Source: Clostridium sp.
GTDB lineage: Bacteria; Bacillota_I; Bacilli_A; RF39; UBA660
Assembly (NCBI GenBank): GCA_022010095.1
Contig: CP091739.1
Span: 1,426,001-1,490,000, forward strand
Direction: 5' to 3'
Length of the DNA: 64,000 nt
In this document: positions 780 through 48,581 of the stretch, in pieces
How the letters are laid out: each line of letters begins with the position of its first letter
Position numbering within the stretch: position 1 is the stretch's first letter
Notes under the pieces: model-generated
Told to the model about the DNA's origin: nothing
The model's database searches: none
The model's input: the letters and a program-made list of their open reading frames with translations, nothing else
Position numbers and translations under genes: made by a program

Positions 780-804
780 ATTTACATATAATTTACATTA
801 CATA

Positions 805-833
805 TTGATTTACATAATAAAAATATATATAAT
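805..833 (+). promoter_or_regulatory. Sigma-70-type promoter for the surface-protein gene
   Basis: TTGATT at 805-810 and a perfect TATAAT at 828-833 with a 17-bp spacer, 47 bp before the start codon. Confidence 0.85.
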
Positions 834-842
834 GAGTTTAAG

Positions 843-872
843 AGTAGTAAAGATATTACTACTATAGGAGGG
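843..872 (+). promoter_or_regulatory. 5' UTR hairpin and strong ribosome binding site
   Basis: An 8-bp perfect inverted repeat AGTAGTAA/TTACTACT (843-850 and 856-863) lies just after the -10 box and directly before AGGAGGG (866-872). It could be a protein-binding site or could modulate access to the ribosome binding site. The function is inferred. Confidence 0.55.
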
Positions 873-879
873 TTATAAT

Positions 880-2409: not shown

Positions 2410-2413
2410 CAAT

Positions 2414-2440
2414 AAGCATTCTTAAACGAATGCTTTTTAT
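2414..2440 (+). terminator. Terminator after the surface-protein gene
   Basis: 8-bp stem AAGCATTC/GAATGCTT with a 6-base loop, followed by T-rich sequence, 5 bp after the stop codon. Confidence 0.88.
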
Positions 2441-2480
2441 ATACGTAAAAAAACATGCTATAATTAGGAAGAGGTACATT

Positions 2481-3113
2481 ATGGAAATCACACTAGATAA
2501 TAAAACATTTAAAGTATTTATAGCTAAGAAAAAAACAATAAGAATATGTATTTAAGAGTTAAAAAAAGATGGAATATATATAACATGTAATTACTTTGTT
2601 ACTAAAGGACTAATTAAATCATTCATTGAAAAAAATAAAAAAATTCAATACTTGAAATGAATGAAAGAATACAAAAGAAAGAGCAAAAAGAAAGAAGAAT
2701 TCTTTTTATTTAGGAAATAAGTATGACGTTATAATATTAAATACAGTTTCTAAAATAGAATTCATAGATGATAAAGTTTATGTTAAAAAAACAAAACATA
2801 TTTAAATACATTTCTTAAAAAAGAAGCAGAAAGAATATTTAATGAAAGACTAGAAATATGTTATAATTTATTTGAAGAAGATATTCCATATCCAGAATTG
2901 TTAATAGGTAAAATGACTCGAAAGTGGGGCTACTGTAATAAAAAGTAAAAAAACTTATTAAATTAAATTTTTGAATTAATAAAATATAGTATTAATGAAA
3001 TAGATTATGTAATTATACACGAACTATCTCATTTAATAGAATTTAATCATTCAAAAGAATTTTTTTGGAATATTGTTAAGAAATATAAACCTGATTATAA
3101 AAGAAAGCACTAA
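2481..3113 (+). CDS. YgjP/SprT-like (M48-type) metallopeptidase, frame-broken
   Basis: Pieces in shifted frames join into one protein of about 205 residues. Family markers: the N-terminal block NMYLRVKK plus DGIYITCN, the RKWGYCNKK block (usually W-G-S-C), and a zinc-binding HELSH near IDYVIIHELSHL followed by NHSKEFFW. These are the marks of the DUF45/YgjP family of single-domain zinc peptidases. The breaks sit in A runs and read through if run lengths are adjusted, so I treat it as intact in the organism. The start is ATG at 2481 behind an AGGAAGAGG ribosome binding site. A -10-like TATAAT lies at 2459-2464. Substrate unknown. Confidence 0.8.
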
Positions 3114-3133
3114 AATACTAAAGGAGGAATAAC

Positions 3134-3873
3134 ATGCTTATTACATCTAAAGATAATAATAGAATCAAAAGAAATACGAAAAACCTTTTAAATAAAAAAA
3201 TATTCTATAGAAAAAAAGGATTATTTGTTATTGAAGGAGAAAAATTTAGTTGAAGAAGCTATTAAAAAAATAATTTACTTGTAGAATTATTTGTTCTTGA
3301 AAACTATGAATGTAATTATGATGTTCCTTATGATACAGTTACTCTTGATGTTATGAAAAGTATGAGTGATTTAAAGAGTACTCCAAGATTACTAGGTGTT
3401 GCGAAAAATTAAAAAATGATAATAAAATTGGTTCTAAAAATACTTATATTAGATGGAGTGCAAGACCCTGGTAATGCCGGTACTATTATAAGAAATTCAG
3501 TTGCATTTGATATAGACACTATTATATTTAGTAATGATTCAGTAAGTCCATATAATGAAAAAGTATTAAGAAGTACTGGTGGTATGATATTTAATACTAA
3601 TATAATAATAGGTGATATTGAAGAATTGATAGGTAAGATAAAGAGTAAAAAAATATTAAAGTAATAGGTACATCATTAAAATCTTCTATTTCACTTGAAA
3701 AACTTGAAAAAACTAGTGAATTTGCTATAATATTTGGAAATGAAGGAAATGGAGTAAAAGATAATATATTAAGTTTATGTGATGAAATAGTTAGAATAGA
3801 TATGAATCCTAAATGTGAAAGTTTAAATGTGGGAGTATCTACTGCTATAATATTATATTATTTATATAAGTGA
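3134..3873 (+). CDS. TrmH/SpoU-family RNA 2'-O-methyltransferase, frame-broken
   Basis: SPOUT-class methyltransferase acting on rRNA or tRNA ribose. An N-terminal substrate-binding part (LITSKDNNRIK, KKGLFVIEG) is followed by the catalytic knot: LDGVQDPGNAGTIIRN, then IIFGNEGNGV, then SLNVGVSTAIILYY, the three SpoU motifs in order. The length of about 245 residues suits the RlmB/TrmH-like group. Start ATG has an AAGGAGG site 6 bp upstream. Frame breaks lie around 3,240-3,280, 3,410 and 3,655. It is first in a cluster with rimM, trmD and hisS. The exact target nucleotide cannot be told from sequence. Confidence 0.9.
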
Positions 3874-3883
3874 AGAGGTTGTT

Positions 3884-4359
3884 ATGAAATATATATTTAT
3901 TGGAAGGATAGTTAATACACATGCCCTTAAGGGCGAAATAAGAATATTAAGTAATTTTGAATTTAAAAGATAGAATTTTTTTAAAGAAAAACACAATCCT
4001 TTATATTGGCGAAAATAAAGATAAAGAAATTATTGAAACTTATAGAAAAACATAAACAATTTGATATGGTTAAATTTAAAGGAATAGACTATATAAATGA
4101 TGTATTAAAATATAAAAGGTAGTAAAGTATATATTGATGAATCCATTCTTAATCTTAAAGATGATGAAATACTTATAAGTGAACTAATAAATATGGATGT
4201 GTATAATGATAATAAATATGTTGGTAAAATAACTGAATATAGAAGTGATAATGGTAATAATATGTTAAGAGTTAATAATAAGTTAATACCATATAATAAA
4301 GATTTTTATTACTAAAATAGATAAAGAAAAATAAAAAGTATTTATTTTTCATGATATAG
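3884..4359 (+). CDS. rimM: 16S rRNA processing protein RimM, frame-broken
   Basis: Assembly factor for the head of the 30S subunit that binds protein S19. The N terminus MKYIFIGRIVNTHALKGEI is the diagnostic RimM start (G-x-I-x-x-x-H-G-x-K-G-E). The PRC-barrel half follows: DDEILISELINMDVYN, VGKITEYR and NKLIPYNKDFI. About 158 residues after correcting breaks near 3,970, 4,010, 4,115 and 4,310. It starts 10 bp after the methyltransferase and precedes trmD, the usual bacterial neighbour. Confidence 0.9.
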
Positions 4360-4371
4360 GAGTGTTTTTTT

Positions 4372-5036
4372 ATGAGAATAGATATATTAACATTATTTCC
4401 TAGTATGTTTGATGGCTTTAAGACAGAAAGTATTATGAAAAAGAGCTATTGAAAAAAAGGAAAAGTAGAAATAAATATAATAGATATTAGAGATTATACA
4501 CCATATAAAAATAATCAAGTTGATGATTATCAATTTGGTGGTGGTGGTGGTATGATAATGATGTGTGAACCTGTATTTAATGCAGTAGAAAGTATTAGAA
4601 CAGAAGATTCAACTGTTATCTTACTTACTCCAAGAGGTGAAACTTATAATGAAAAAGAAAGCATATGAACTAAAAGATAAAAAAGCATTTAATAATAATA
4701 TGTGGGCATTATGAAGGATTTGATGAAAGAATATATACACTTGCTGATGAACTTGTTTCAATAGGTAACTTTATACTTACAGGTGGAGAATTACCAGCAA
4801 TGATGATAGCAGACTCAGTAGTAAGACTAATTGATGGAGTAATAACAAGTACAAGTCTTGAATATGAAAGTTTCAATGATAATTTACTTGATTATCCAGT
4901 TTATACTAAACCAAGAGAATTTAGAGGAATGGAAGTACCAGAAGTATTACTAAATGGTAACCATAAACTAATAAATGAATATAGAGAAAGTGAAAGAAAA
5001 AGAATAACAAAAGAATATAGAAAAGATTTATTATAG
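4372..5036 (+). CDS. trmD: tRNA (guanine37-N1)-methyltransferase TrmD, frame-broken
   Basis: SAM-dependent SPOUT enzyme that methylates G37 next to the anticodon and prevents frameshifting. It starts [15 protein letters not shown], followed by [33 protein letters not shown] split over a break, and [16 protein letters not shown], all TrmD motifs that line the trefoil knot. It ends near [16 protein letters not shown]. Length about 221 residues, normal for the family. Breaks lie near 4,440, 4,655 and 4,700. Start ATG is preceded by AGGAG at 4358-4362 overlapping the rimM stop. Confidence 0.95.
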
Positions 5037-5045
5037 GTGATATGT

Positions 5046-5506
5046 ATGAGATATGTAATAGAACATAAAGGAGAAGAAAAAAAATTAACTTATCATAACG
5101 TTAAGATAGTTGGACTATCTGTTACTCCTAAAAACAATGTAAAAGATTTAACTATCAAAGCTGATAAAATTATTTTAATAGACCCAAATTTATGCGAAGC
5201 ATACATACGTAGAAGAATAAATAAAAAAATAGATAAAGTAATAAAATTTATGATAAAAATACTAAATGATGAAGATACAACTGATGGAGATGCAGGGCTT
5301 GTATTAGATGAAGTAAATAAATTAAAAAGGAATAATTATTAACAAATATAAAGAATATATGTTAGAAAGTGAATATAAAGCATTACTTACCAAGCTTATA
5401 TTAATTGAAGAAGAATTCAAAAAGAAATTATAATAATAAATTATATAATACTTATGGTAATAACATATATTATGAAGAAGAATATAGTGAAGGAAGAAGT
5501 AGATAA
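5046..5506 (+). CDS. Conserved hypothetical protein between trmD and hisS
   Basis: I do not recognise the family. After one break near 5,330 it is about 152 residues: a charged beta-rich first half (MRYVIEHKGEEKKLTY), a Lys/Arg patch (RRRINKKIDKV), then a helical segment (EYKALLTKLILIEEEFKKK) and an acidic tail ending EEEYSEGRSR. A GTG at 5037 is also in frame, but the ATG at 5046 has a better spaced AGGTGAT site. No membrane helix. Its position inside a tRNA/ribosome cluster suggests a translation-linked role, which is inference only. Confidence 0.65.
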
Positions 5507-6813
5507 TGAAAGAAGATTTTTAAATTAATGAATTTAAAAGGTACTAGTGATTTCTTACCTGAAGAGCAAATTATTAGAAATAGAATTACTGATACCTTAA
5601 AGAAAAAAAGTTTGAACTATATGGATTTTTTTACCACTTGAAACACCTATATTATGCTACTACGATTTACTTGCGAGTAAGTATGCAGGTGGAGCTGAAA
5701 TATTAAAGGAAGTTTATAAGTTTAAAGACCAAGGCATGAGAGATATAGGTCTTCGTTATGATTTAACAGTACCATTTTCTAAAGTAATTGGTATGAATAA
5801 AGGACTTATATTACCATTTAAGAGATATGAAATAGGTAAGGTATTTAGAGATGGCCCAGTTAAATTAGGAAGAGCACGTGAATTCTATCAATGTGATGTA
5901 GATGCTTGTGGAGTAGAATCTCCTTATGCTGAAATAGAATATTTCATGATGAGTAAAGAAGTATTTAAAGAATTTAATCTTGATGTTGAAATAAGATATA
6001 ACAATAGAAAATTCTTAAGTGGATTACTTGAATATGTAAGTGTTCCTAAAGAAAATATTGGAGCATTCATTACATTAATTGATAAATTAGATAAACTTAC
6101 TAGAGATGATATTGAAAGCGAACTTGAAGCATTATCTTCAAAAAGAAATAGTAGATAAAGTATTTAAATATTTTTGAATATGATTTAGAAATGTTAACAA
6201 GTGAACTAGAAAAATACGAATATAGAATTATTAACAGAAGGAATAAATGAACTTAATAGTTTAGATAAACTTATTAAAGATTTGAATTTAGACATATGTA
6301 AGTTCACACCTTTCTTAGCAAGAGGTCTTGAAATATATACTGGATGTGTCTGGGAAGTATTTGATAGAACTGGAGAATTTAAGTCAGCTCTAGGTGGCGG
6401 AGGAAGATATGATAAAATAATCACTAACTTCTTACACAATGGTGAAGAGTATCCAGCAATAGGTATGTCATTTGGACTAGAGCCAATATACACATTACTT
6501 AAAGAGAAAGAATCAAAAGATTTAAAGAAATATGACGCGTATGTTTATTCATTTAATAATGATAAATACTTATTTGAAATATCTAATATGTTAAGACAAA
6601 AATAATATAAAAAGTATTAACAGAGCTTAACAATATAAAATTAAAAAAAAGCAATGAATAATGCTAATCGTGAAAAAAATAGATAAAGTTATCATAATAG
6701 GTGAAGATGAACTTAAAAAAATAATTCAGTTACATTAAAAGATATGATAATCGGGTAATCAAGAATTAGTAAAAAAATAGAAAATATAGTTTCAAAAATA
6801 AAAAGAGATGTAA
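5507..6813 (+). CDS. hisS: Histidyl-tRNA synthetase, frame-broken
   Basis: Class II synthetase that charges tRNA-His. Motif 2 is clear (FKRYEIGKVFRDGP and GRAREFYQCDVD), as are the histidine-specific block RGLEIYTGCVWEV and motif 3 (GGGGRYDKI, AIGMSFGLEPIY). The C-terminal anticodon-binding domain is present in pieces (YDAYVYSF, NANREKIDKVIIIGEDELK). Two starts are possible: ATG 5507, overlapping the previous stop (MKEDFKLMNLKGT after removing one T), or ATG 5528. The likely stop is TAA 6811-6813 inside the terminator stem if one A is removed. Breaks occur at about 5,515, 5,605, 5,625, 6,140, 6,220, 6,603 and several after 6,640. Confidence 0.95.
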
Positions 6814-6838
6814 AGAATATACTGCTTTACATCTTTTT
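6807..6838 (+). terminator. Terminator after hisS
   Basis: 9-bp perfect stem GATGTAAAG/CTTTACATC with a nine-base loop and five T. It ends the trmH-like/rimM/trmD/hisS cluster. Confidence 0.92.
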
Positions 6839-6840
6839 AT

Positions 6841-6868
6841 TTGAATAAATATTTTAATGTGATAAAAT
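6841..6868 (+). promoter_or_regulatory. Promoter for the prepilin gene
   Basis: TTGAAT at 6841-6846 and TAAAAT at 6863-6868 with a 16-bp spacer, 26 bp before the ATG. Confidence 0.6.
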
Positions 6869-6893
6869 ATATATGAAAGATAGGATGATTGTT

Positions 6894-7286
6894 ATGAATA
6901 AAAAAGGTTTTACATTAATTGAGTTACTTGCAGTAATTGCTATTTTAGCAGTACTTGTATCTTTAGCAGTACCAAAAAAATATTAGAATATTATAATAAA
7001 TCAAAAAAAGATGCATTCTTAATTGAGGTAGGTAAACTATATACTGAAACAAAAACAAGAAATTGATTCAGCAAAGCAATAAGAAATCAAAAGTTTACTG
7101 GTGCTAATACTGTAAAAGGGCCTAAACTTGATTTATTATTAGAAAATCTTGATTATTGTATTGAAGTAAAAAAATGGAATAATCACATCAGTAAAAGCGT
7201 ATAATGATGAGTATTATATAGAAACTAATGCATCATATGATACATTTAAAAAAACAGTAACAATTGATGATATAAAAAGAACATAG
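6894..7286 (+). CDS. Type IV prepilin-like protein, frame-broken
   Basis: The N terminus MNKKGFTLIELLAVIAILA is the class III signal peptide of prepilins: short basic leader, cleavage after Gly, Phe+1, Glu+5, and a long hydrophobic helix. It needs a prepilin peptidase and a ComG/Pil-type assembly system, none of which is in the window. The rest (about 130 residues) is broken at several A runs and ends YDTFKKTVTIDDIKRT. It is a single gene with its own promoter and terminator. Competence-type pseudopilin or a surface pilin are both possible. Confidence 0.75.
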
Positions 7287-7307
7287 TAAAAACATATACT
7301 TGTGACT

Positions 7308-7331
7308 AGAAAGAGAAATCTTTCTTTTTAT
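7308..7331 (+). terminator. Terminator after the prepilin gene
   Basis: 7-bp stem AGAAAGA/TCTTTCT with a GAAA loop, followed by a T-rich tract. Confidence 0.85.
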
Positions 7332-7360
7332 TTTACCTGCATTTATGGCTTTAAAGGCAA

Positions 7361-7384
7361 TAAAAAACTTCCTAAATAGGAAGT
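7361..7384 (-). terminator. Original terminator of the tRNA-Glu operon, stranded at the left prophage end
   Basis: Stem ACTTCCTA/TAGGAAGT at 7367-7384; read on the minus strand it is followed by six T. It lies right outside attL, in the position where the minus-strand tRNA-Glu would have ended before integration. The tRNA is now 35 kb away and uses a prophage-borne hairpin instead (42,881). Orientation and spacing are seen; the history is inferred. Confidence 0.7.
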
Positions 7385-7392
7385 ATATATTT

Positions 7393-7409
7393 AATATGGT
7401 GACCCGCAT
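7393..7409 (+). repeat. attL core (17-bp direct repeat)
   Basis: AATATGGTGACCCGCAT, identical to 42,913-42,929 in the 3' end of the tRNA-Glu gene. Beyond the core, a partly matching CGGGA follows on both sides after one or two differing bases. Confidence 0.92.
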
Positions 7410-7481
7410 ACGGGAAACATCGTTTTTTTAAATTTTAACCCTTATTTTACTTAAAAAAAGAATTTTATTACCATAAAAAAA

Positions 7482-24791: not shown

Positions 24792-24868
24792 TGCCTCGTA
24801 GCCAAAGTGGTAAGGCACAAGACTTTGACTCTTGCATTTTGCTGGTTCGAATCCAGCCGAGGCAACCA
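24792..24868 (+). tRNA. Prophage tRNA-Gln (anticodon TTG), CCA encoded
   Basis: 77 bases. Acceptor TGCCTCG/CGAGGCA, anticodon stem CAAGA/TCTTG with loop CTTTGAC giving anticodon TTG (reads CAA), T arm GCTGG/CCAGC with TTCGAAT, encoded CCA. The variable loop has one T more than usual (in a T4 run). It lies between coat and connector genes on the coding strand, so it is phage cargo in the late operon. Confidence 0.93.
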
Positions 24869-31500: not shown

Positions 31501-34500
31501 TGAATATTCGCTAAATTCAAAGGAAGAACCTGAAAGTGGTTCTTTTTTTCTTTGGAACAAAGAGTATCTGGCGATGAATTATTGGATGCACAAGATCTAA
31601 TTAAAGAAATAAAAGCAGTAGGTGCAAATGTAGATAAAAATGGATATGTAACTTTATATCATCAAACTACAAATGAAAATGCAGATAAAATAAAACAAAC
31701 TGGTAAAATGATAGCGAAAGAACCATATGTTTATTTCAGTACTTCGAAAGATGCTAGTCAATCTGATGGAAGAGGAAATACAAAATTAGAATTTAAAATT
31801 CCAGCTGAAAAACTTATTTTAGATGATATTTTTTCAGATAATGCTGATGTAAAAATAAAATTAAATGGTAATAAAGAATTAGATGTATCTAATTATATCA
31901 AAAAAGAAAAATCAAAAGATGTATTGTTTGCAGGTGATGATATTAATGAATTTGGTTATTTTCCAACTAAAACAAGAAATTCTTTAACCACCAAAGAATT
32001 AAAGACTAAATTAAAAGTTAAAGGAACAAAAACGAAATTTGGTGAATTATTTAACAATGAAATATCACCAATAAAAGAAGAAATAAAGAATGTTTCTGAT
32101 AAACTAGATAATTTATCTAGCCAAATAAGTAATATTCAAAAATCAAACTCAAAAACAATACTATAAAAAGATGATATAGCACCAGTGAAGAATGAAACTG
32201 AATCAATAAATGAAGATACTCATAATGAAAATAATACAACTATTGAAAATAATAAATCAAGTGCTTATATAGAAACACCTAAAAAAATTTAAATTTTGAT
32301 AGACAAAAAGTATACACCACTAACTGAAAAATGACTCAAATCTTTTAACAGATGCTTTAATGAATGATAAGAATTACTTAAAAATCATTATCTGATGAAG
32401 ATAGTAACCATTATGATAATGAGAAACTTGTTAATAATCTATCAAAGAATGTAAGTTCAAATTTAGGATTAGGAAAAAAAATCAAAGAGAAGAACTTAAA
32501 AAAACATTATTAAGGAAACAATAGATTATGATTATACAACAGATGAATTAGCAGATATTTTAGAAAAAAAGTTTACGAGAGTAGAAAACAAAATAGTTAA
32601 TGAAGAAGCAAGAGAAATTAAGTCATTAATAAGAACTATTCGATAAAAAGTATCAGATGGAATAAAAAAATGGATATACCAGATTATAATGATTTTAGCC
32701 GAAGAAATTTTGGAAAGATACGATTTACAAGAGATGGAGTATCAGTTGATGTTGCATATAAAGCATTAAATGAAAGATTGCCAAATTATTTTCCTGATAA
32801 TATAGTAAATCCTAGTGATCAATTATTAAAAATAGCAGAGGTTGCAAAATATTGCTAACGAAGTTGTTGAGAGTGTTGAAATACCAAAAGAAGCAATAGA
32901 TAATATAGCTGACTATATAACAGATTCAATAATACAAGATAAATATAATAGTAACTTAGAAAAAAATTCTACTTTATTAAAAAGATATACAATTTGATTT
33001 TTACTGGATGATATTTTTACCTACTACAATTAGAACACAAGAATCAATAGATAACTACATTGATAGTAGAGATATAACTCCTTTACGAAAAGAAGTTAAA
33101 AAAACGAGAATTGAAAGAACAAAAAAAGGAAAAAATGAGTAGAATACTAAAAAGAAGCTTTTTATAAATAAAAAAATTACATAATAGATCAGACAGCATT
33201 AGCAACAGGAAACAAAGAAATTACATTTACTGCTGATATGTTAAATAATGTTGTAGGTGAAGTTCAATATAATATCAATGGTAAAACAAACTGATATTAA
33301 TGGTAATACGATTGGTAAAGGAATTAAAGAAATATTTGCCCCAGCAAAAAAAGCAGGGATGTATGAGATATTTAATGATTATTTAATTCAAAAAAATCTA
33401 ATATTGAAAGACATGCAATTGGAAAAAGGTAGTAGAGTTCCACTTGAAATTTCAAAACAAATTGTAAATGCTTATGAAAGCAAATATCCTGTATTGAAAG
33501 AATGGACAAAAAGATGTATATAAGTATTTTTGATAATATATTACTAGAACAATATAAATCAGGAATAGTTTCAAAAGACCAATATGAAAATTTCAGAGGA
33601 GAAAATGGAATTTATAGAAGTTATGTACCATTTTATGAAAATACAGTAGAAGAAAGTAAATATTATGATGAAGAAGGTAATGTAAAACCATTCTCAACAT
33701 TATTGAAGGCAAAAGGTAATGCACAAGATACTTCTGGTCTTTTATCTGTTGAAGATGCAATGGTAAAACAAACTTATAAATATAAATCAGCAATAAGAGC
33801 AAATGAGTTATATAAAGAAATTGTTCCATATTTAGGAAAATATGAAAGTGAACTTCCAGCAGATAGTAGAAAGAATCCAACAGAATTAGATAGTCTTTTT
33901 CACAGATGTAGATGGAACAAAAGTATTAAGTGCATATGTTGATGGTAAAAAAATGTCTGCACAAATAAGTGAAGAATTATATAATGAACTTTCTAACACA
34001 TATGAAAATAAGATAAAAGAATTAGAAAAAGATTTCTCCATAATAACAAACCCAATACAAAAAAAGTAAGTAATATAAGAAGAAATTTAATTACAACTTG
34101 GAATCCAATATTTTTTTGGTTAGAAATGCTATCAAAGATATACAAGATGCACCAATCAACTCAAAGCATACTAAGGACATGTTAAAGACTTATTTTGGAG
34201 TTGGCGAAAAGGCAGCAATTATGGAATTAAAAAGCAGACAAAAAAACCAAAAGAAGCGCAACAGTTTTTAGCATTATATGGTAGTGAAAATACATATGGA
34301 GACTATTCTGAACTAGATAGCAAATCAAAAAATGTTATATCAAAATTTGGAAAGAAATTAGTAGAATTAAATGAATTAATAGAACTTGCTCCAAGATATG
34401 CAGAATTTAAAGCAAGCTTGAAAAATGGTGATTCATTACAAGAAGCAATTTATAATGCAAGAGAGGTAACAACTAATTTTGGTCGTGGTGGTTATATAAC

Positions 34501-36140
34501 AAAAGCATTAAATAGAAATGGATTCACATTCTTAAATGCAAGCGTACAAGGATTAGATAAAGCAATAAGAAATATAACAGGTCAAAATGGAGCAAAAGGT
34601 GTTACATCTGTTATATTAAAAGGAGCATTACTTTCTGTCGCCCCAGCAATTATAAATGAACTTCTATTTGGAGTCGGTGATGATAAAGATGAAGACTATG
34701 AAGCACTTCCTAACTATATAAAAGATAATTATTATCTAATAAAAGTTGGTAATAATTTTATAAGAATACCAAAAGGAAGAATTAACTCAGTATTTGGAAG
34801 TTTAGCAAGAAGAACAATAGAAGGTATAGAGGGTGAAGAGAATCCATTTAAAGGATATTTAGATAATTCTTGGAGTCAAATAGGTGTTGGTGATCCAAGC
34901 TCAAATAACATCTTAGCGCCTATTAAACAAGTTAAAGAAAACAAAGCATGGCATGGTGGAGATATTGTTCCAACAAGATTACAAAATAAGCCAGCTAGTG
35001 AGCAAACAGATGCCAAGATTGATTCAATAAGTAACTTCATTGGAAAAACTTTTAATGTTAGTCCTTATAAAGTTAATTATCTATTAGATCAATATAGTGG
35101 TGGAATCGGAGATGTACTTTTTACCTATGCTTTCACAAGAAACAAAGAATGGTGCAGATAATATATTTGAATATTTAATTTCACCTCTTAGTGATTCATT
35201 TGTAGTAAATTCAACAGATGATAATAAATATCCTGGAAATTTCTTTGAAAAAGAAAGAAGAACTACAAATTCAATCTAATAGTGATTATGCAACAGATGA
35301 AGATATATTAAAATATAAATATTTTTTTCAGATGTTTCAAAAAGAGTTGAGCGATTTATATAAAGAAAGAAGAGAGGTTCAATCAGATACTACAATCACT
35401 CAAAAAGAAAAAAATATCTAAAAAGTTCAAAAGATTCAAAAAGGAAATTAATTCAATTTCTAAAAAAATGGATTGACTAATTATAATGGTGTAAATATTA
35501 CAGGAAATTATGCAAGAGTAGATGATAAAAGAATATTACAAAGATACTCAAAATGAATGGAAAAAAAAGTAAATAATTCTGATAGTGAATTTATTGCAGG
35601 CATGAGGAGCAATGAAAAAAATCATCTTACTTTGTAGCAAAAAAATGAAATAAGTAAGATTACAAAAAAATTATAAAGAAAAAAATTGAAAAAAACAAGA
35701 AAAATGGTGCAAAAAGAAGTTCAAGAACAATTAAAAAAAGAGAAAAAGCAAAAAAATATTACAAATGTCATTATTAATTCAAATCTTGAAAATTATAGTA
35801 AAAGCAATGTTATATGCTAAATACTATTCTAGTGAAAAGGCAATGAATAATGTATATAATGCTGGATATGATATTGATACTTATATTGATGCTTTATATA
35901 ACATCAGTGAAATTCAAGAAAAAAATACAGCAAAGAAAAATGGATATAAATCAGCAACTAGAAAAAAAAGCAATTTATAGTTATATAAATTCTTTAAATA
36001 TGAACATTCCACAAAAAGGCAATGTTGATAAAAAAATATTATTCATCATTTAAAAACATATAACAAGCAAATAGTTGATTATATATCAGAATTAGATATT
36101 AGTTATGAAGAAAAAAATGAATCTTATAGAACAAAAATAA
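28536..36140 (+). CDS. Giant phage polyvalent protein (about 2,500 residues), frame-broken
   Basis: No convincing gene boundary (new ribosome site plus start) was seen across 7.6 kb, so I read one protein. Order: (1) Gly/Ala-rich amphipathic helices with long hydrophobic patches (28,640-29,650), able to act on membranes; (2) a zinc-protease motif H-E-M-T-H at 30,174-30,188; (3) a second, LIHEIQHAIQDIEGF, at 31,092-31,136; (4) an ADP-ribosyltransferase-like stretch YVTLYHQTTNENADKIKQTG at 31,648-31,707, then VYFSTSKDASQSD; (5) a coiled, badly broken middle (32,160-33,250); (6) GKGIKEIFAPAKKAGMYEIF; (7) TWNPIFLVRNAIKDIQDA at 34,094-34,148 through GRGGYITKALNRNGFTFLNA to about 35,130, resembling the LPD38 domain; (8) coiled C terminus. 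Such polyvalent proteins enter the host with phage DNA. Domain names are from memory. Confidence 0.75.
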
Positions 36141-36220: not shown

Positions 36221-37255
36221 ATGAGTGTAAAAAGGTGATATACCACAAGTAAGAACACCACAGGATTTAGAAAGAAAGTATGACTTAACAGCAATATCAG
36301 AGTTAAAAAGAAACAAAGATTAATAGTAACAGTTTAAATCAAACACAGAAAGAATTAAAGAATTTTGTAAAATCAGCTACAAAAGATTTAGAGGACATAA
36401 GAAAAGATGTTGCAGATAAAGTGGAAATATGGTTTGGTTCAGGTCAACCGACAATAGAGGGCTATCCAACAAATCAATGGGAAGAAAAAAAGAATATGAA
36501 AAAAACACACTAGTGATTTATATTATGATACGAATACTGGTTATGCTTATAAATTCAGTTTTAAGGATAATGCTTATCTTTGGGAAGAAATTAAAGATAA
36601 AGATGTAATAGAAGCGCTATCGGTTGCAAATGCTGCAAAAGATACAGCAGATGGAAAGAGAAGAATTTTTACATCCGCTCCAATTCCACCATATGATAAT
36701 GGAGACTTATGGTTAAAAGATGGTGAAATTCTTGTATGTCAAATTTCAAAAGATAATGAAGGTGAATTTGAACAAAGTGATTTTATTAATGCAACTGACT
36801 ATGAAACATCTACAAGTGCAAAAAAGACAAAAAATGAAATAAATGCAAAGTTAGAAATAATCTCTGGAAAAGTAACAACAGTAGAATCAAACACTTATAA
36901 AAAAACAGAAATAGAACAGATACTAGAAGGTACTTATGTAGATGAAAATGGAAACGAAATAGTTACTAAAACAGTAAAAACTATATCAGGAACATTTGAT
37001 GAGAATGGAATGCATTATGAAAAAACTGGAGCAAGAACAAGTAGTACTATAAATGAAGCTGGATTATCAGTAGATGACATTGAAAATCATGATGAATTAT
37101 TGTTTGCTGGATATGATAAGGATACAAAAGAATCAGTTGTTAGAACAGAAAATTTAAAAAGTTAAAAAAAATACTTTGTTTGTGGAACATACTCACGATT
37201 TGAAGATTATATACCTGATGATACTGATAATGGAACTGGGGTATATATATTATGA
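36221..37255 (+). CDS. Tail fibre/appendage protein, frame-broken
   Basis: About 343 residues. N terminus MSVKGDIPQVRTPQDLERKY, then a coiled coil (LNQTQKELKNFVKSATKDLE) and a beta part: FGSGQPTIEGYPTNQW, DLYYDTNTGYAYKF, FTSAPIPPYDNGDLWLKDGE, and ETSTSAKKTKNEINAKLE. The block T-S-x-P-x-P-P-Y-D-x-G-D-L-W is a hallmark of phage tail/baseplate proteins. The last 60 residues carry a T-I-N-E-A-G-L-S-V-D-D motif like fibre trimerisation ends. ATG 36221 follows AAAGGAG. Confidence 0.7.
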
Positions 37256-38627
37256 TGAAATTAGATATACAATTATTTGCGGGAACTTCCAGTGGTTCAG
37301 TCAATACAAATGGTTATGAAGGTAGAAGTGTAATATTTAATTGGAACATAACTAAACAAGATATAGAAAGCAATAAAACGACATTTAAATATACACTCAA
37401 AGGGTATGGAGATGCTGAATCTTCATATTATTATTCAGGTCCATTCTTATTAAAGATACAGGGTGAAGAAATTTATCAATCTTCAACCAGAATTAAACTT
37501 TATAATGGTACTTTAATTAAAGAAGGTACATATACAATAGAACACAATAATGATGGAAATAAGAGTTTTAGTGTTGAAATAAAAGCTGGGATTTATAAGT
37601 CATCATATAATTGTACTGCATCAAAAACATTTGAATTATTAACCATTCCAAGAGCAAGCGATGTTACTGCAAGCGATGGAGTAATAAATCAACCTATCTT
37701 GATTACCATTGATAAGAAAAAAAATAAGAATTATACAACTAAATTATTTTTATAAGTTTGAAGGTGGGGATTATACATCGATATTTGATTCTCCTATTGA
37801 AGAAACACAAATCAATTTTATATTGCCTCTTTCAACATATGATTTAATTCCAGATAAGAAAAGTATAAAAGGATATATAAAAGCAGATACTTATAATCAA
37901 ACAGTAAAAATAGGAGATTCAAAAGAAACTACATTTATAGCATATGCTAATGAAATTGCATGTTCTCCTGGAATAGAAGATACCAGTATCTTAGACACAA
38001 ATACAAAAACAATTGCTTTGACAGGCAGTAATCAAAGATTCATAAAATATGTTTCAAAGCCACAACTAAGTTGGAATGCAGTTGCAAAATATGAATCAAT
38101 AATAAAATTTGAAAAAATCAATGGGGTAATTGCCGAGAGTCCATTGATCACTGAATGGGCGGATTCATATAAGTTAGTGGTAACTGATTCAAGAGGTTTT
38201 ACAAATACTTATGATTTTCTAATGGAAAATATAGTACCATATTTTTTTACCTAAAAATTAAAAGCAAGTGGAAAAAGAGAGAAAAATCCTACTAGTTCAA
38301 AGATATTTATAACTTTAAAAGGCAAATATTATGTGGGAAGCTTTGATTCGGCGAATCAGAATCAGAACATAAAGAAATGTATTTGCAAATATAAAAAGAA
38401 AACAGATGAAGAATGGACACAAATAACATTAAATCCAAATGTTGATGAAGATGGAAATTTTGAATTAAATAACTATGATTTAGGGGAAATTTGTGATTAT
38501 TCATCAAGTTGGATGTTTGAAGTGTCAATAGAGGACTCTATTTCTTCAGATACATATTCATTTATTATAAATAAAAGGTATTCCTAACCATAATTGGTAT
38601 GAGAAGGGAGATGAAAATTATTTTTAA
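37252..38627 (+). CDS. Phage structural protein (DUF859-like), frame-broken
   Basis: About 455 residues. Starts MKLDIQLFAGTSSGSVNTNG, the K-L-x-x-Q-L-F-A N terminus common to phage minor structural proteins. Several Ig-like beta repeats follow: EGRSVIFNWNITKQDIESNK, YYYSGPFLLKIQGEEIYQS, GTYTIEHNNDGNKSFSVEI (the N-x-D-G-x-x-S-F turn), LTIPRASDVTASDG. It is usually part of the host-contact device. The start overlaps the previous stop (ATGATG). Breaks at 37,726, 38,246-38,260 and 38,576. Confidence 0.7.
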
Positions 38628-38716
38628 TGTTAACGGATATTTAACAATTAAAGAAAAATATGAATTGCCTTGGCTTTAATAAGTTGGGAACTTATGAAGA
38701 AACAGAAGAAACATAA
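38611..38716 (+). CDS. Short tail-region protein (about 35 residues)
   Basis: MKIIFNVNGYLTIKEKYELP then a broken end ...NKLGTYEETEET. It starts inside the end of the preceding gene behind AGAAGGGAG. Similar tiny proteins occur between structural genes in phages; function unknown. Confidence 0.45.
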
Positions 38717-38728
38717 AAGGAGGAAGAT

Positions 38729-38833
38729 ATGAAAAAGGTATTGACAAGCATTCACAAGAATGCGATGCTTATACATACATACATACATACATACATACAT
38801 ACATACATACATACAGGAAGGAGGGCTATGTAG
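38729..38833 (+). CDS. Leader ORF carrying the (ATAC)n repeat, possible phase switch
   Basis: ATG 38729 has a strong AGGAGG site 5 bp upstream. Codons: MKKVLTSIHKNAML, then the repeat encodes I-H-T-Y units. With 11 ATAC copies, as assembled, the frame ends at TAG 38,831. With one copy fewer (or two more) it would continue without a stop over the following hairpin and end at TAA 38,910-38,912, eight bases past the ATG of the next gene. With one copy more it would stop before that, inside the hairpin. This geometry is seen directly; switching by repeat slippage is inferred from known tetranucleotide-repeat contingency loci. Confidence 0.6.
   Translation: MKKVLTSIHKNAMLIHTYIHTYIHTYIHTGRRAM
38771..38815 (+). 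repeat. Tetranucleotide tandem repeat (ATAC)11
   Basis: Eleven perfect copies of ATAC plus one A. Period 4 in a reading frame means each gain or loss of a copy shifts the frame. It is the only long short-period repeat in the window. Confidence 0.95.
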
Positions 38834-38853
38834 CCACCTTCCTAACAAAGAAA

Positions 38854-38896
38854 AGAGGTGGAATAGCTATTTAACTATTTCACTTCTCTCGGGTGG
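38854..38896 (+). promoter_or_regulatory. Hairpin and weak ribosome site before the first receptor-binding gene
   Basis: 13-bp stem AGAGGTGGAATAG/CTATTTCACTTCT with two G-T pairs and an 8-base loop (38,854-38,887). It ends four bases before GGGTGG (38,891-38,896), a poor Shine-Dalgarno for ATG 38902. A smaller hairpin, GGAAGG/CCTTCC, lies at 38,816-38,842. Ribosomes translating the leader could melt these structures. Confidence 0.6.
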
Positions 38897-38901
38897 CTGC
38901 T

Positions 38902-39383
38902 ATGGCAATTAAATCAATTTATAAATTAAAAGATGAAAGAATCACATCTGATTCTATCGTACATAAAAAAATCAAATGAGTACATCAATCTAAAAAAATA
39001 TTTAGATAATTTAGAAAAATGGTATTGAAGATAAATTTAATTATCAAAAAAAGGTGATACTTACATTATTAGCGATAGATCTTACATTACAGTTGGTGGA
39101 AGTTTAACTGCTGCAAAAGGTCAAATAAGGTTTGGAATTTTTTTGTGCCAAAAAAATTAACTTTAATAAGTAAGATTACAATTAGTCTAGCAAAAAAATT
39201 ACTGTTAGAAATACTTCTGGAACATATATACTTGATTATGTTGATGTAACGAATAGCATTACTGCTAGTAAATCAGGAGATAATGCAATCTATTTATCAT
39301 ATGCACCAGGCAGTACAATGAGTGGAACAAACAATACACCAGTTTCAGTTGAAATTGGTGCTTTAACATTAACATTTAATTAA
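38902..39383 (+). CDS. Receptor-binding/tail fibre paralogue 1, frame-broken
   Basis: About 160 residues. Conserved N terminus MAIKSIYKLKDERITSDSIV (then H-K-x-S-N-E-Y-I-N-L-K), a short coil, then its own beta-rich tip: YIISDRSYITVGGSLTAAKG, IRFGIFVPKKL, TVRNTSGTYILDYVDVTNS, AIYLSYAPGSTMSGTNN. The N terminus is shared with the two following genes, as expected for an attachment module; the tip differs. Several A-run breaks (38,970, 38,995, 39,040, 39,140-39,200). Confidence 0.62.
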
Positions 39384-39403
39384 ATTGATTTAATTTGAAA
39401 ATA

Positions 39404-39880
39404 ATGGCAACAAATATATGAATTAAATAATGAGAGAATTACATCCAATTCAATAGTTCACAAAATTGGAACTAATAGTTATAAAAAAACTTATGTCTTT
39501 TTACTGAATGAAATAGACAGCAAATTAAATAAGTTATTAAATAATAAGGTGATATTATTTATAGGCAGTACAAATGGAGTGATAACACTAGAAAGAAGTT
39601 CGGAAGAATTTAAATATATTGAAATTTTTTTATGCTGACAATGATGAAACATATTCCAGTGTAAAAGTATTTGAGCCGAATAATAAATATGTGGATTTAA
39701 CTACTCTTGCAAGATGGGGTAGTACTTTTTATATTAAGCAAAAAAGAATTTTAATATCAGGTGAAAAAATAACAAATGGTAACACAACAGAAGCACAGTT
39801 TACAGCCACACCTAAAAATCACGATAAATACTACTGCTAATAATATAAATATAACTAAGATAATTGGATATATAGAATAG
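39404..39880 (+). CDS. Receptor-binding/tail fibre paralogue 2
   Basis: About 158 residues: N terminus MATNIYELNNERITSNSIV as in the neighbours, coil LLNEIDSKLNKLLNNKVILF, then a different tip: GSTNGVITLERSSEEFKYIE, SSVKVFEPNNKYVDLTTLAR, FTATPKNHDK. Breaks at 39,485, 39,627 and 39,825. Confidence 0.6.
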
Positions 39881-39896
39881 TTAAATAGTCGTTATT

Positions 39897-40402
39897 ATGG
39901 CGACTAAATTAATTTATAAATTAGATAACGAAAGAATTACATCAGATTCAATAGTTCACAAAGAATCAAATGAGTATATCAATTTAAAAAGAATACTTGA
40001 ATAAATTTAAAAAAATGATATAGAAAAATTCTATGAAGTATAAGCCAGGAGATACATTTGAAGCACTGAATACAAGCATGGATTTTTGCAGGATGTGTTA
40101 CCGGCTCTGCAAAAAAGGATTACATTTTACGATATTCACGCCAAAAAAATTTAGATAATATTGAAAATGTCCAAGTTGATATTCTAAAGGCAAATACCAG
40201 AATCAGTGGTGGTGGATATTTAGATAATAAATCATTTGTTGCAGGAGGATATGACTATAAATCTTTATATTCTTGCGCAGCAACAGTAAGATCAAGTAAT
40301 TCTATTAAATTAATAATAGAAAAAAATCATCTTCGTTTTTCAAATACAACTAATAATATACCTGTAACAGTTAGTGTTGAAGATATAAAATTATCTTTTT
40401 AG
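39897..40402 (+). CDS. Receptor-binding/tail fibre paralogue 3, frame-broken
   Basis: About 167 residues: MATKLIYKLDNERITSDSIV then H-K-E-S-N-E-Y-I-N-L-K, nearly identical to paralogue 1 at the start, then a new tip: GCVTGSAKRITFTIFTPKNL, NTRISGGGYLDNKSFVAGGY, SCAATVRSSNSIKLIIEKNH, IPVTVSVEDIKLSF. Several breaks between 40,000 and 40,155. The gene triplication is evidence for modular exchange of host-range tips. Confidence 0.6.
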
Positions 40403-43998: not shown

Positions 43999-44022
43999 AA
44001 AGTGTGTAAATATATTAACATC

Positions 44023-44056
44023 AAAAGTGTAAACCTTTTCTTTACACTTTTTTTAA
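44023..44056 (+). terminator. Terminator before parE
   Basis: 11-bp stem AAAAGTGTAAA/TTTACACTTTT with a 7-base loop and T run. Confidence 0.88.
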
Positions 44057-44069
44057 TTTTTTGTATAAT
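44041..44069 (+). promoter_or_regulatory. parE-parC promoter overlapping the terminator
   Basis: TTTACA (44,041-44,046) is part of the 3' arm of the terminator stem; TATAAT is at 44,064-44,069 with a spacer of exactly 17. Transcript start would be about 18 bp before the parE ATG. Confidence 0.75.
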
Positions 44070-44091
44070 GAGTACTGGAGATAAGGTGATT

Positions 44092-46005
44092 ATGGCAGAA
44101 TATAATGAAAAATCAATAAAAATATTAGAAGGTCTTGAAGCTGTACGTAAAAGACCTGGTATGTATATAGGTAGTACTGACAAAAGAGGACTACATCATT
44201 TAGTATGGGAAATTGTTGACAATGCGATAGATGAAGCCATAAATGGATATGGTAAAAAAATAACAGTTACTCTTACTAAAGTAGGAAGTGTAAGAGTTAG
44301 TGATGAAGGACGTGGCGTTCCAATTGGAAAACACTCTTCAGGTAAATCAACTCCGGAAGTAATCTATACTGTATTACACGCAGGTGGTAAATTCGAAACA
44401 GATGGTTACAAAGTATCTGGTGGATTACATGGTGTTGGTTCATCTGTTGTTAATGCATTATCTAAATGGATGAAAGTTACTATTTGTAGAGAAGGTAAGA
44501 TATGTGAAATATCATTTAAAAATGGTGGACATGTAGATAAAGAACTAAAACAAATAGGCACAACTAAACAAACAGGTACTACAGTTGAATTCTTCCCAGA
44601 TGAAGAAATATTTGGAAATGCTAGATTCAGCTACACTACTATATGTGAAAGAATGCAAGAAAGTGCTTTCCTTATAAATGGATTAACTATGGAAGTTATC
44701 GATGAAGAAGATGATAAACATAGTATATATTGTTATGATAATGGACTTGTATCTTTTGTAGAATATGTTAATGAAGGAAAAGACGTACTTCAAAAAGTAA
44801 TTAATTTTAGTGGTGAAAAGAATGGTATTGAAGTAGATATCGCTATGCAATATACTGATTCATATAACGAAAACATAATGTCATTTGTTAACAATGTTAA
44901 AACTGTTGATGGTGGTAGTCATGAAGTAGGATTTAAGACAGCACTTACTAAAGTATTTAATGAATATATTAGAGCTAATAATCTTCTTAAGAGTAAAGAA
45001 GGACTTGATGGTAGTGATACAAGAGAAGGATTAACAGCAATAATTAGTTTAAAAATACCTGAAAATCTACTTCAATTTGAAGGACAAACAAAGGGTAAAC
45101 TTGGTACACCACAAGCAAGAACAGTAGTAGAAAGTATAGTATATGAAAAGTTATCTTACTATTTAGAAGAAAATAAAGAATCAGCTACATCTATAATGGA
45201 TAAAGCATTAAAGAGTAAACTTGCTCGTGAAGCAGCTAGAAAAGCAAGAGCAGAAGCAAGGGCTGGAAAAGGTAAAGGTAAAAGTGAAAAAGTATTACTT
45301 GGTAAATTAACACCAGCGCAAAGTAAAGAGTATCATAAAAATGAACTATTTATAGTCGAAGGAAATAGTGCAGGTGGTACTGCTAAAAGTGGTAGAGATA
45401 AACGCCATCAAGCAATACTACCTTTAAGAGGTAAAATAATTAACTGTGAAAATCAACAGTAGCAGACCTTTTCAAAAATGAAGAAATTAATACAATAGTT
45501 CACGCAATAGGTGCTGGAGTGGGTGCTGACTTTGACTATACTGAATCAAACTATGGAAAAGTCATAATAATGACCGATGCCGATGATGACGGAGCACACA
45601 TTCAAACATTACTTCTTACATTCTTCTATAGATGGATGAGAGATTTAATAGAACATGGAATGCTTTATATAGCAGTACCACCTCTATACTTAGTTAAATA
45701 TAATAAAGATAAAAAAAGTATATAAATACAAATGAAGAATTAAATGAATTTAAAAAAATACATTTAAAGGTAAATATACAGTTCAACGTTATAAGGGACT
45801 TGGTGAAATGAATGCAGATCAATTATGGGAAACAACAATGGATCCATCAAGTAGAACTCTTGTAAAAGTAAGAATAGATGATAAAGCACTTGCTGAAAAA
45901 AGAGTTGGAGTTCTAATGGGAGATGACTCTGAAATTCGTAAAGAATGGATTGAAGAAAACGTAGAATTTACACTTGAAGATGATTATACGAAAGGAGCAA
46001 AATAA
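44092..46005 (+). CDS. parE: DNA topoisomerase IV subunit B
   Basis: ATPase subunit of topoisomerase IV, which decatenates daughter chromosomes. GHKL fold: [55 protein letters not shown]; transducer [42 protein letters not shown] and [29 protein letters not shown] (not DVDGAHIR) and [10 protein letters not shown] favour ParE over GyrB. About 637 residues. Breaks at 45,450, 45,714 and 45,752. The stop overlaps the parC start by one base (TAATG); RBS AAGGTGAT. Confidence 0.93.
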
Positions 46006-48581
46006 TGGCAAAAGAAAAAGAAACAACAATAATAGAAAAGATAAATGATTTTGCTCTTGAAGAAATCATGGGAGAACGTTTTGGTAGATATGCTAAATAT
46101 ATTATTCAAGATAGAGCACTTCCAGATGTTCGTGATGGACTAAAACCAGTACAAAGAAGAATTCTTTATTCAATGTACAAAGATAAAAAAATACATATGA
46201 TAAAGAAACAAGAAAATCTGCTAAAACAGTAGGTAATGTTATAGGTAACTACCATCCACATGGTGATACATCAGTATATGATGCGATGGTAAGACTTAGT
46301 CAAAAATGGAAACAAAGAGTAATACTTGTGGATATGCAAGGAAACAATGGTTCAATAGATGGTGATGGACCAGCCGCAATGCGTTATACTGAAGCAAGAC
46401 TAGCTAAAATAAGTAATGTACTTTTAGAAGATATAGAAAAAGATTCAGTAGAAATGGCTCTTACATTCGATGATTATAGTTATGAACCAACAGTACTTCC
46501 TGCATACTTTCCAAACTTTTAGTAAATGGTTCAACTGGTATTAGTGCAGGTTATGCAACTAATATTCCACCACATAATTTAGGTGAAGTAATAGACGCAA
46601 CAATTAAAAGAATAGATTCACCTAACTGTAGACTTGAAACAATACTAGATATAGTAAAAGGACCAGATTTTCCAACGGGAGGTATAGTTGAAGGAAAAGA
46701 TGCTCTTATAAAAGCATATACTACAGGAAAAGGAAAAGTAGTAGTAAAAAGCAAGATATGACTTTGATAATACAAAAAGGTAAAAAAATCAAATAATCAT
46801 AACAGAAATTCCATATGATACTATTAAGAAAAAAATATAATAAGTAAAATAGAAGAAATAAGACTTGATAAAAAAAATAGATGGAATACTTGAAGTAAGA
46901 GATGAATCAGATAGAAATGATGAACTTCGTATAGTAATAGAGCTTAAGAAGGACGCTAATAGAGATTTAATCATAAATTATTTACTTAAGAATACTGATT
47001 TACAAGTAAACTATGCATATAATATGGTCGCAATAGTAAATAAAACTCCAAAAAAACACTTGGAATACTTGATATATTAGATGCATTCATTGCTCATAAT
47101 AAAGAAGTAGTAACTAAAAGAACAAAATTTGATCTAGATGTAGACTTAAAAGGAAAATACATATTATTGAAGGTCTCATTAAAGCACTTGATATACTAGA
47201 TGAAGTAATTAAAACTATTCGTAAAAGTAAAAACAAAACAGACGCAATAGAAAACTTAATGCATGAATATGAATTCACTAAAGCACAAGCAGAAGCTATC
47301 GTAATGATGCAACTATATAAATTAACTAATACTGATGTAACTGAACTTAAAAAAAGAATTTGAAGAACTTACTAAAGAAATCGCATATTTTTAGAGAAAT
47401 ACTTTCTAGTGAAGAAAAATTATTATCTGTTATTAAAGATAAACTTAGAAGTATTAAGAAAGAATATGCTGATCCAAGACGTACTACTATTAAAGATGAA
47501 GTAAGTGAAATTAAGATAGATACACTTGATATGATAAGTAAAGAAGATTTTATCGTATGTATATCTAATAGTGGATATGTTAAAAAGGTATCAATGAAAT
47601 CATATAATGCTACACCAAATGAATATCCTGGAGTAAGAGAAAATGATTATATAACAGGTTTCTTTAAGATTAATAATGTTGATACAGTATTATTATTTAC
47701 TAATTTAGGTAACTATTTATATCTACCAGTAAGAGATATTAATGAATCAAAATATAAAGATATTGGTAGTCATATATCTAATTATATTAAAGTTAGTGAT
47801 GGAGAAAAGATAATTCAATCATTTGGGGTATCTAAATTTGATAAAACTATAATTACTGCATTTACTAAAAAAATGGTATGGTTAAAAGAATGACATTAAA
47901 AAGACTTTGAAGTATCAAGATACACTAAACCTATCACAATGTTTAAACTAAAAGATAATGATGAAGTAATTAGTGTAAGTAATAAAATGTATGAAGATAC
48001 AATTGTTGTTACTAAAGAAGGTTATGCATTAAAATATTCTACTAGTGAAATACCATTAGTTGGTCTTAGAACAAGTGGTGTTAAATCAATAAATCTAGGA
48101 AGTAATGATGAAGTAATTAGTTCATTTAATGTAAATCCTGATAAAGAATACATAACAGTATTCACAGATAGAAATACTGCTAAAAAGAATAAAAAGTAGA
48201 AGAAATTCAAAAAAACAACAAGAGCTAAAAAAAGGTTCATTAATTATTAAGAGCCCTAAAAACTAAACAATATAATTTATTTAGATGTTATAACACAAAT
48301 AGTAAAAACAATATTTGGCATTCTTGATGGTGATATAGGATATATGAAATCAAGTGATATAAACATTATGGATAAACTAAGTACAGGAAGTCAAATTACT
48401 AAAAAAAGAATATAGAAGATATATTTATCGTTAGTAGACTTAAAGATATTACTAAAATAGAAATACCAAAAGAAGAAACACAAGTAGAAGAAGTAAAAGA
48501 AGAGAAAAAAAGAAACACCTAAAAAAAGAGTCAAGAGAACAACTTACTATGAGTGATTTCTTTGAAGAATTTAAATTATAA
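46005..48581 (+). CDS. parC: DNA topoisomerase IV subunit A, frame-broken
   Basis: Breakage-reunion subunit. [56 protein letters not shown] (quinolone-determining region) and active Tyr in [20 protein letters not shown] and [11 protein letters not shown] resemble ParC rather than GyrA. The coiled-coil neck and C-terminal beta-pinwheel follow; it ends [13 protein letters not shown]. About 855 residues. Four breaks lie in A7 runs (46,185; 46,782; 46,829; 47,050) that all read through if cut to A5. Confidence 0.93.

Follow-up and report, generated by a model that had tools for sequence, protein, structure and literature searches.

Within one phage genome, alternative receptor-binding proteins can be obtained from invertible tail-fibre segments, such as those of Mu gin and P1 cin, or from diversity-generating retroelements. 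In Streptococcus gallolyticus, the number of repeats in a leader ORF of pil1 and pil3 sets the position of the stop codon relative to a hairpin (Danne et al. 2014, PMC3894217). The excerpts of that paper on pil1 describe 5-nt GCAGA units and a single hairpin, which acts as a transcription terminator, the outcome being a low or high output of one operon. In excerpts on phage T4 genes 38 and 25, an RNA helix is described as shortening the distance between the Shine-Dalgarno (SD) sequence and the AUG from 22 to 5 nt and from 27 to 11 nt (PMC3014915). In those on Haemophilus lic1A, CAAT is present in 6–41 copies with initiation codons in two frames (PMC4019658), which shows, as far as these excerpts go, that a CAAT array can be relevant in more than one frame.

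Here, we describe a prophage element that, compared with the excerpts on pil1, likewise combines tandem repeats in a leader-peptide ORF, a frame set by the number of units, and adhesin-type genes downstream. As in pil1-type systems, the repeats lie inside a predicted leader ORF, mostly with a ribosome-binding site.

Leader, repeat array and hairpins in the prophage

The window is the whole stretch of DNA analysed (64,000 nt). It is a chromosome segment of an uncultured Bacilli-type bacterium with an integrated prophage (7396–42929), with ATGGTGACCCGCAT present at both prophage ends (7396 and 42916), next to a tRNA-Glu gene. The prophage is absent from the relative L005 (MAG Tenericutes SUG767), whose gyrase-B-type protein is 97% identical to that of the window; there, DNA matching 699–7,415 joins directly to that matching 42,917 onward. 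A tRNA-Gln (TTG) gene is located within the prophage (24792–24868). A piece of a giant LPD38-domain protein carried by the phage lies at 34418–35161; the protein is intact (2,545 aa) in the viral relative L001, which has an upstream phage protein in common with the window but in which no tetranucleotide array was seen.

The element is preceded by a tail-protein gene and followed by small tandem paralogues. Its features, all on the + strand, are as follows (S1, S2, and S3 designate the stop codons of the three exit frames; L050 is the twin of the window element described below):

37252–38587, +: upstream tail-protein gene (DUF859), in frame-broken pieces in the window
38718–38723, +: leader SD, AGGAGG (SD energy −11.8 in L050)
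38729–38833, +: leader ORF, MKKVLTSIHKNAMLIHTY..., from ATG 38729 to stop S1 with 11 units, frame read base by base
38741–38769, +: promoter-like TTGACA (38741–38746), 17 nt, GATGCT (38764–38769), inside the leader
38748–38763, +: dyad GCATTC/GAATGC within the promoter-like spacer
38771–38814, +: ATAC array, 11.0 units (6 units in L050)
38815–38843, +: hairpin 1 from the predicted fold, 5′ arm AAGGAGG, with S1 (TAG 38831–38833) at the loop
38854–38887, +: hairpin 2 (13 bp), 5′ arm GAGGTGG, with S2 (TAA 38872–38874) in the loop
38891–38896, +: SD-like GGGTGG of gene 1, preceding ATG 38902
38902–39382, +: paralogue 1 (gene 1), receptor-binding type, frame-broken, end approximate (repeat family D1)
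38910–38912, +: stop S3 (TAA), which closes the third exit frame 8 nt downstream of the A of ATG 38902
39381–39395, +: 15 nt antisense to the gene 1 start (38907–38921, which includes S3), 8 nt before the gene 2 ATG
39404–39890, +: paralogue 2 (gene 2), no SD, frame-broken, end approximate, homologue in L050
39876–39888, +: 13 nt antisense to the loop (S2) and 3′ arm of hairpin 2, 8 nt before the gene 3 ATG
39897–40400, +: paralogue 3 (gene 3), no SD, frame-broken, end approximate, homologue in L050

The paralogues are followed by a holin-like ORF, which by eye resembles gene 4 of L098 (a weak holin match), and then by a CHAP-domain gene. The array is the top-scoring period-4 array in the window. 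A first-pass annotation had proposed a leader frame with AGGAGG, ATG 38729, and 11 ATAC units, and reading the sequence base by base gave the same result. As assembled, the frame ends at TAG 38831–38833, which places the window in phase S1; one unit fewer leads to TAA 38910–38912 (S3) and one more to TAA 38872–38874 (S2), as had been predicted. The 13-bp hairpin at 38854–38887 and ATG 38902 after GGGTGG were also correctly described, as was the overlap with the first paralogue; however, that annotation had overlooked hairpin 1 (38815–38843), the site of the 38831 stop, as well as the antisense sequences ahead of two additional paralogues.

The region 38690–38930 folded better than all of its 200 shuffles (z −4.66). 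Just before the gene 1 ATG, GGTGGCT is complementary to AGCCACC in hairpin 1, and this pairing is used in the lowest-energy fold of the window, but not in that of L050. No Rfam family was found at the element's position in the window.

The window is indel-noisy: in an alignment of parE/parC with L005 (4,586 aligned columns), 27 of the 29 gaps were not multiples of 3. This noise, which consists mostly of +1 or +2 A insertions in A-runs, breaks parE/parC (44006–48580) and other genes; arguments based on reading frames therefore required an independent copy. In the L005 genome (G001), a copy of the element, L050, lies on a different contig, where it is likewise flanked by a DUF859 gene and three paralogues. 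The two elements are identical over the 66 nt before and the 69 nt after the array, with 6 units in L050 versus 11 in the window; further upstream, the L050 DNA is much less like the window. As L050 comes from another assembly, its identical flanks make the element sequence trustworthy, and indicate that the leader is real, that its A-run is correct, and that array length varies between kin. The window's count of 11 units is itself uncertain. The DUF859 homologue of L050 is intact (485 aa), with phrog_372 assigned in the relatives L050, L098, and L111, and its three paralogues are intact as well (157, about 160, and 165 aa).

Related elements and their exit frames

Searches covering 4-nt repeat units gave a total of 19 elements, including the window and L050, with ATAC, CAAT, AAGC, or ACGA as the unit. 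A DNA search of 386 family genomes, 74 of which had some match, mostly short, yielded two further copies among the six loci inspected besides G001: L054 and L055, which are the same as L116 and L117, respectively. With L073, identified by a script run over 30 loci, at least three further elements were thus obtained in the family-wide scan, whereas a class-wide scan (395 genomes, exact TTGACA) returned G001 alone. In IMG/VR, TATAC(ATAC)4, searched with no promoter or leader required, was found at 29 loci, of which 12 have the anatomy, as judged by eye, and 17 do not; the former represent 10 distinct elements, as L086 and L100 duplicate L085 and L098. Scans for other 4-nt arrays, either behind TTGA[C/T] or, in IMG/VR, with TTGACA required, added L084 (AAGC)8, L085 (CAAT)16, L118 (CATA)18 and (CAAT)13, and L073 (ACGA)8, the end of which is cut off. 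L084, L085, and L118 each have two elements in series (A and B), with different units and each with its own two or three tail genes. Candidates L119–L126 had CAAT-type or AAGC-type arrays but, by eye, lacked the element anatomy, and L113–L115 matched the short pattern only; all of these were discarded. Cultured phages, searched with both DNA and protein, yielded neither the element nor its genes, and at most distant matches of neighbouring phage proteins; the window's exact hairpin was not found in the IMG/VR scan.

The downstream side is available for 17 of the 19 elements (L111 and L073 are without it), and L092 is almost without its upstream part. In L092, L100, L111, and L073, the sequence ends at the array or ≤20 nt from it, which would be the outcome of mixed array lengths in a sample or of arrays that short reads fail to resolve.

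A neutral microsatellite or an assembly artefact, with the anatomy arising by chance, could be suggested by the noisy window and by the 17 of 29 IMG/VR loci that have an array without the anatomy. However, the element flanks are identical in an independent assembly and the 19 elements share one anatomy in unrelated contigs. Based on these flanks and the shuffle statistics given below, we rejected chance and artefact, to which we attach almost no probability.

Three tandem genes of receptor-binding type follow 13 of the 17 elements. There are two after L116 and after the AAGC element of L084, and one after L117; in L087, the available DNA ends after two genes. Where the sequence past the tandem genes is readable, it contains either a second element or a holin-like gene that has an SD of its own. 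The paralogues of L050, L098, and L083 have a common N-terminus (SIYKLKDERITSDSIVH-like) and diverge beyond it; elsewhere, kinship was assessed by eye. Among the individual genes, gene 2 of L083 and gene 1 of L092 matched Gp10_C and gene 1 of L095 matched a tail-fibre family, while a domain scan gave no match for genes 1 and 3 of L050 or gene 1 of L054. A structure model of the L050 gene 1 homologue (pLDDT 79.5) was beta-rich, and nothing in the PDB matched it at E ≤ 0.001. By their look, the tandem paralogues are thus putative receptor-binding modules.

The leader frame was conserved. Of 14 elements tested, all 14 have an ATG, ≤50 nt upstream of the TTGA motif, from which a reading frame runs open through the array; composition shuffles would give 2.75 (P 2.3e-11; the window was left out as the twin of L050). 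An SD with an energy of −6 or better precedes the leader in 11 of these 14 elements, those of L084B, L087, and L088 being almost without one. Whatever the frame, the array units are read as stop-free 4-residue repeats (IHTY, SINQ, SKQA).

In addition, one exit frame is open from the array to gene 1, with a stop 0–10 nt from its start, at 11 of 12 loci when L050 is excluded, against an expectation of 1.18 (P about 1e-11, the loci being partly related). Over the 17 complete elements, S1 was located in a hairpin in 16, S2 in a hairpin in 14, and S3 at the gene 1 start in 16. The exceptions were L117, which has a single gene and misfits all three stop rules, and L087 and L116, which misfit on S2; in L092, the two hairpin stops fall within the same predicted hairpin. 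The starts assigned to the first genes are in part our choice: an earlier in-frame GTG or TTG exists in 7 of 15 elements, in which the ATG was taken, and counted from that codon the S3 stop lies 16–19 nt on. The leader start and the overlap with gene 1, the two features that the first-pass annotation had singled out for comparison among relatives, are therefore both kept beyond chance. Moreover, S3, with its stop within a few nt of the downstream start, has the arrangement expected of coupling by overlap (16 of 17).

The leader ORF has its frame set by a repeat unit that is not a multiple of 3, and unit number differs between relatives, giving different frames, as in SSR contingency loci. Among close kin, the number of units was 11 versus 6 for the window and L050 (the count of 11 coming from the noisy assembly). 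It was about 6, 7, and 24 for P0002 and P0023, kin of the L095 leader, and this leader itself (phases S3, S2, and S3). Predicted leader proteins also occur in a set of 5.8 billion proteins, among many unrelated repeat proteins. Among the kin of the window leader, P0165, P0166, and L050 are in S2 and P0167–P0170 in S3, the phases of P0165–P0170 having been read by eye from the protein ends; these S3 proteins correspond to the read-through product that the first-pass annotation had predicted. The occurrence of S1 in this family is uncertain, as it rests on the window's own unit count; S1 products, being short, may escape gene prediction. Leaving out L055/L117, the leader was readable in 15 elements, of which 5 were in S1, 4 in S2, and 6 in S3, with phases counted from the upstream, mostly SD-bearing ATG; choosing the last ATG alters L085B and L118B. 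Overall, the exit frame of the leader is very probably a selected feature.

Before the ATAC arrays, TTGAC[A/T]-N16–18-TATGCT resembles a promoter (spacing by eye). In the TTGACA part, the nine distinct loci of the unbiased IMG/VR set exhibit TTGACA (4), TTGACT (3), TTGATT (1), and TTGCAA (1). In the window, as well as in L098, L084, L085, and L118, we also observed a dyad of changing sequence before the array, in the promoter-like spacer; it is strong in several loci and weak or absent in others. Control could then be transcriptional, with a TTGACA...TATGCT promoter starting RNA in the array, the leader ORF being a by-product, repeat number tuning the 5′ UTR, and the AAGGAGG hairpins near the 5′ end stabilising or regulating the mRNA. 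The motif is retained in L054, L055, and L085 although it falls in different codon frames there; its spacing, by eye, is 16–18 nt, and a generic promoter scan called the L095 copy. The same scan did not call the window's motif, and this explanation, which we consider improbable, leaves the 14 open leaders and the three-frame stop pattern unaccounted for. The motif is nevertheless the weakest point of a leader-based account: RNA begun there would lack the leader start, which counts against a leader-based selector. It may give a leader-less RNA or pause the polymerase.

Shine-Dalgarno sites and predicted antisense pairing

SD energies, calculated in 15 elements as those of the duplex with a presumed 16S tail sequence, averaged −12.8 before S1 (−10 or better in 15 of 15) and −10.8 before S2 (14 of 15). 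Gene 1 was preceded by an average of −8.1, gene 2 by +0.3, gene 3 by +0.55 (12 elements), and gene 4 by −6.4 (7 elements). The strongest SDs thus precede stop codons, while two genes of three have none. The sole S2 without an SD belongs to the two-gene locus L116, which fits a model with one site per gene. In contrast to this model, the two-gene locus L084A retains SDs at both hairpin stops; this SD site without a gene lowered our confidence in a three-way selector.

The 40 nt preceding each of these two genes, 2 and 3, were predicted to pair with the stop regions beyond shuffles, with p < 0.05 at 8 of 10 loci for gene 2 (Fisher 1.5e-9) and at 8 of 9 loci for gene 3 (Fisher 2.5e-9); gene 4, used as a control, showed such pairing at none of 7 loci (p 0.83). 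In L050, the gene 3 pairing, equivalent to the 13-nt site of the window, had p 0.003, and the gene 2 start was placed 3 nt too far downstream in this test. Pairing was not significant for gene 2 of L083 (p 0.13), gene 2 of L092 (0.10), and gene 3 of L097 (0.21).

When own leaders were compared with swapped ones, p was 5e-5 for both genes (15 and 12 elements), the least that 20,000 permutations can show, and a locus's own leader came out on top in 8 of 15 cases for gene 2 and 7 of 12 for gene 3. In a non-redundant set (<68% identity, with a median of 57% over all pairs, the loci being partly related), p was 1e-5 for gene 2 (best pairing with the own leader at 6 of 9 loci) and 0.0014 for gene 3 (at 5 of 6 loci), in both cases the least the test could show. 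Both the shuffle and the swap tests rest on folding energies, that is, on predicted pairing. The antisense match was longer than the sense match in 25 of 27 cases, with two ties, which argues that the pairing does not stem from shared ancestry of the repeats.

The polarity is bridge-like: an SD, a few nt, the helix, a few nt, and the AUG. The antisense mostly ends 5–15 nt before the AUG, which itself is free. An SD and a helix were found together at a hairpin stop for 19 of the 27 genes, our script having found none for the other 8. Through the best-spaced helix, the effective SD-helix-AUG spacing, as read from sequence with the helix excised, was 8–13 nt in 15 of these 19 and 16–21 nt in 4; when the longest helix was taken instead, 14 genes were at 8–13 nt and five beyond. 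A second antisense stretch, 16–24 nt before the AUG and directed against the gene 1 start, was observed in L084B, L085A, L085B, L088, and L095; L097, L116, L118A, and L118B also have one against this start. In L117, no frame reaches the gene and there is no clear bridge, and in L116 the observed phase leads to a stop site to which no gene corresponds.

The first-pass annotation had proposed a one-in-three switch. A frame set by the count, with one frame reaching the gene 1 start, was borne out; however, neither of the remaining phases is likely to be 'off', since their stops follow the strongest SDs and lie within sequence antisense to the starts of the SD-less paralogues 2 and 3. A coupled gene 1, with the two other phases plainly OFF, genes 2 and 3 expressed by some other route, and the antisense incidental or repressive, has in its favour the position of S3 at the gene 1 start in 16 of 17 complete elements and the precedent of pil1, whose leader also bears repeats. 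It accounts neither for SDs being present at S1 and S2 and missing from genes 2 and 3, nor for antisense that leaves the AUG free, nor for pairing specific to the own leader. We thus regard it as unlikely, though the least so of the alternatives, and an on/off switch for one gene looks like too small a reading of the finding.

The order of leader ORF, repeats, hairpin, and gene also matches that expected of pil1-type attenuation, in which translation of a long leader would melt a transcription terminator ahead of the genes. No intrinsic terminator was found at hairpin 1 or 2 in the four loci scanned: the window, L095, and L097 had no terminator-like site, and the one match in L098, a 5-bp stem-T, was located past hairpin 2 and ahead of gene 1. 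An intrinsic-terminator model is disfavoured by these scans and would leave the SD-less genes 2 and 3 and the antisense unaccounted for; we consider it very improbable.

A putative three-way selector and known systems

The observations are probably best explained by a phase-variable, three-way translational selector. In such a device, slipped-strand changes in the tetranucleotide count would give leader ribosomes a new exit frame, and the three frames would bring them to three first stops, at hairpin 1, hairpin 2, and the gene 1 start. The leader would have to be translated, and to lie on RNA begun further upstream. At the hairpin stops, the strong SD a few nt before the stop would be available to the SD-less genes 2 and 3, whose upstream bases are statistically complementary to the stop-site region. 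Pairing would loop out the intervening gene or genes and place the leader SD about 8–13 nt from the distant AUG. A ribosome ending at a given site would then re-initiate on one paralogue, locally at the gene 1 overlap and otherwise through an RNA bridge, and the extra antisense between some gene 2 and 3 upstream regions and the gene 1 start could make the choice exclusive. A three-way choice among paralogues is likely in our view, the bridging step somewhat less so.

In the window, the predicted pairings suggest that S1 goes with gene 1, S2 with gene 3, and S3 with gene 2, or with gene 1 by overlap. Each gene would thus have a site of its own, but in an assignment unlike that of most other loci, in which the overlap ties gene 1 to S3. 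In the window's family, the 38910 phase may serve either gene 1, by overlap, or gene 2, by the 15-nt pairing.

As a general statement, we think it somewhat probable that gut-type Bacillota phages count repeats modulo 3 and route terminating ribosomes, via SD-lending RNA bridges, to one of three receptor-binding genes, some with two selectors in series. If this is true, a single phage genome would encode three mutually exclusive receptor-binding proteins without a recombinase or retroelement, and polymerase slippage would pick the tail tip, at contingency-locus rates, through a three-state reading-frame device. Long-range SD lending by RNA bridges would be an additional mode of bacterial translation initiation. 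Moreover, the adhesin made would be predictable from sequence, as repeat number modulo 3, so that metagenomic reads would directly report the choice of tail tip.

Mu gin and P1 cin use DNA inversion and retroelements use mutagenesis, whereas here repeat number alone would change. In the excerpts on lic1A, CAAT units are common to both systems, but in lic1A the repeat is part of the coding sequence itself, without a leader or a choice of genes. Among the matches listed from open PMC papers, we found no repeat-counting choice among genes. The parts have precedents, in the pil1 leader and in T4 bridging; the combination was absent from those matches.

As in the excerpts on T4 genes 38 and 25, a helix between the SD and the AUG would give a working distance. 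The T4 structure is local and confined to a single leader, whereas the helix proposed here would bridge hundreds of nt, leaving whole genes in the loop, with one SD site for each distant gene. In contrast to what the excerpts describe for pil1, the units here are tetranucleotides, usually followed by two SD-bearing hairpins and an overlap, with up to three genes downstream, and the carrier is a phage. On the basis of these excerpts, pil1 is the closest known switch, and T4 genes 38 and 25 are the closest known bridge.
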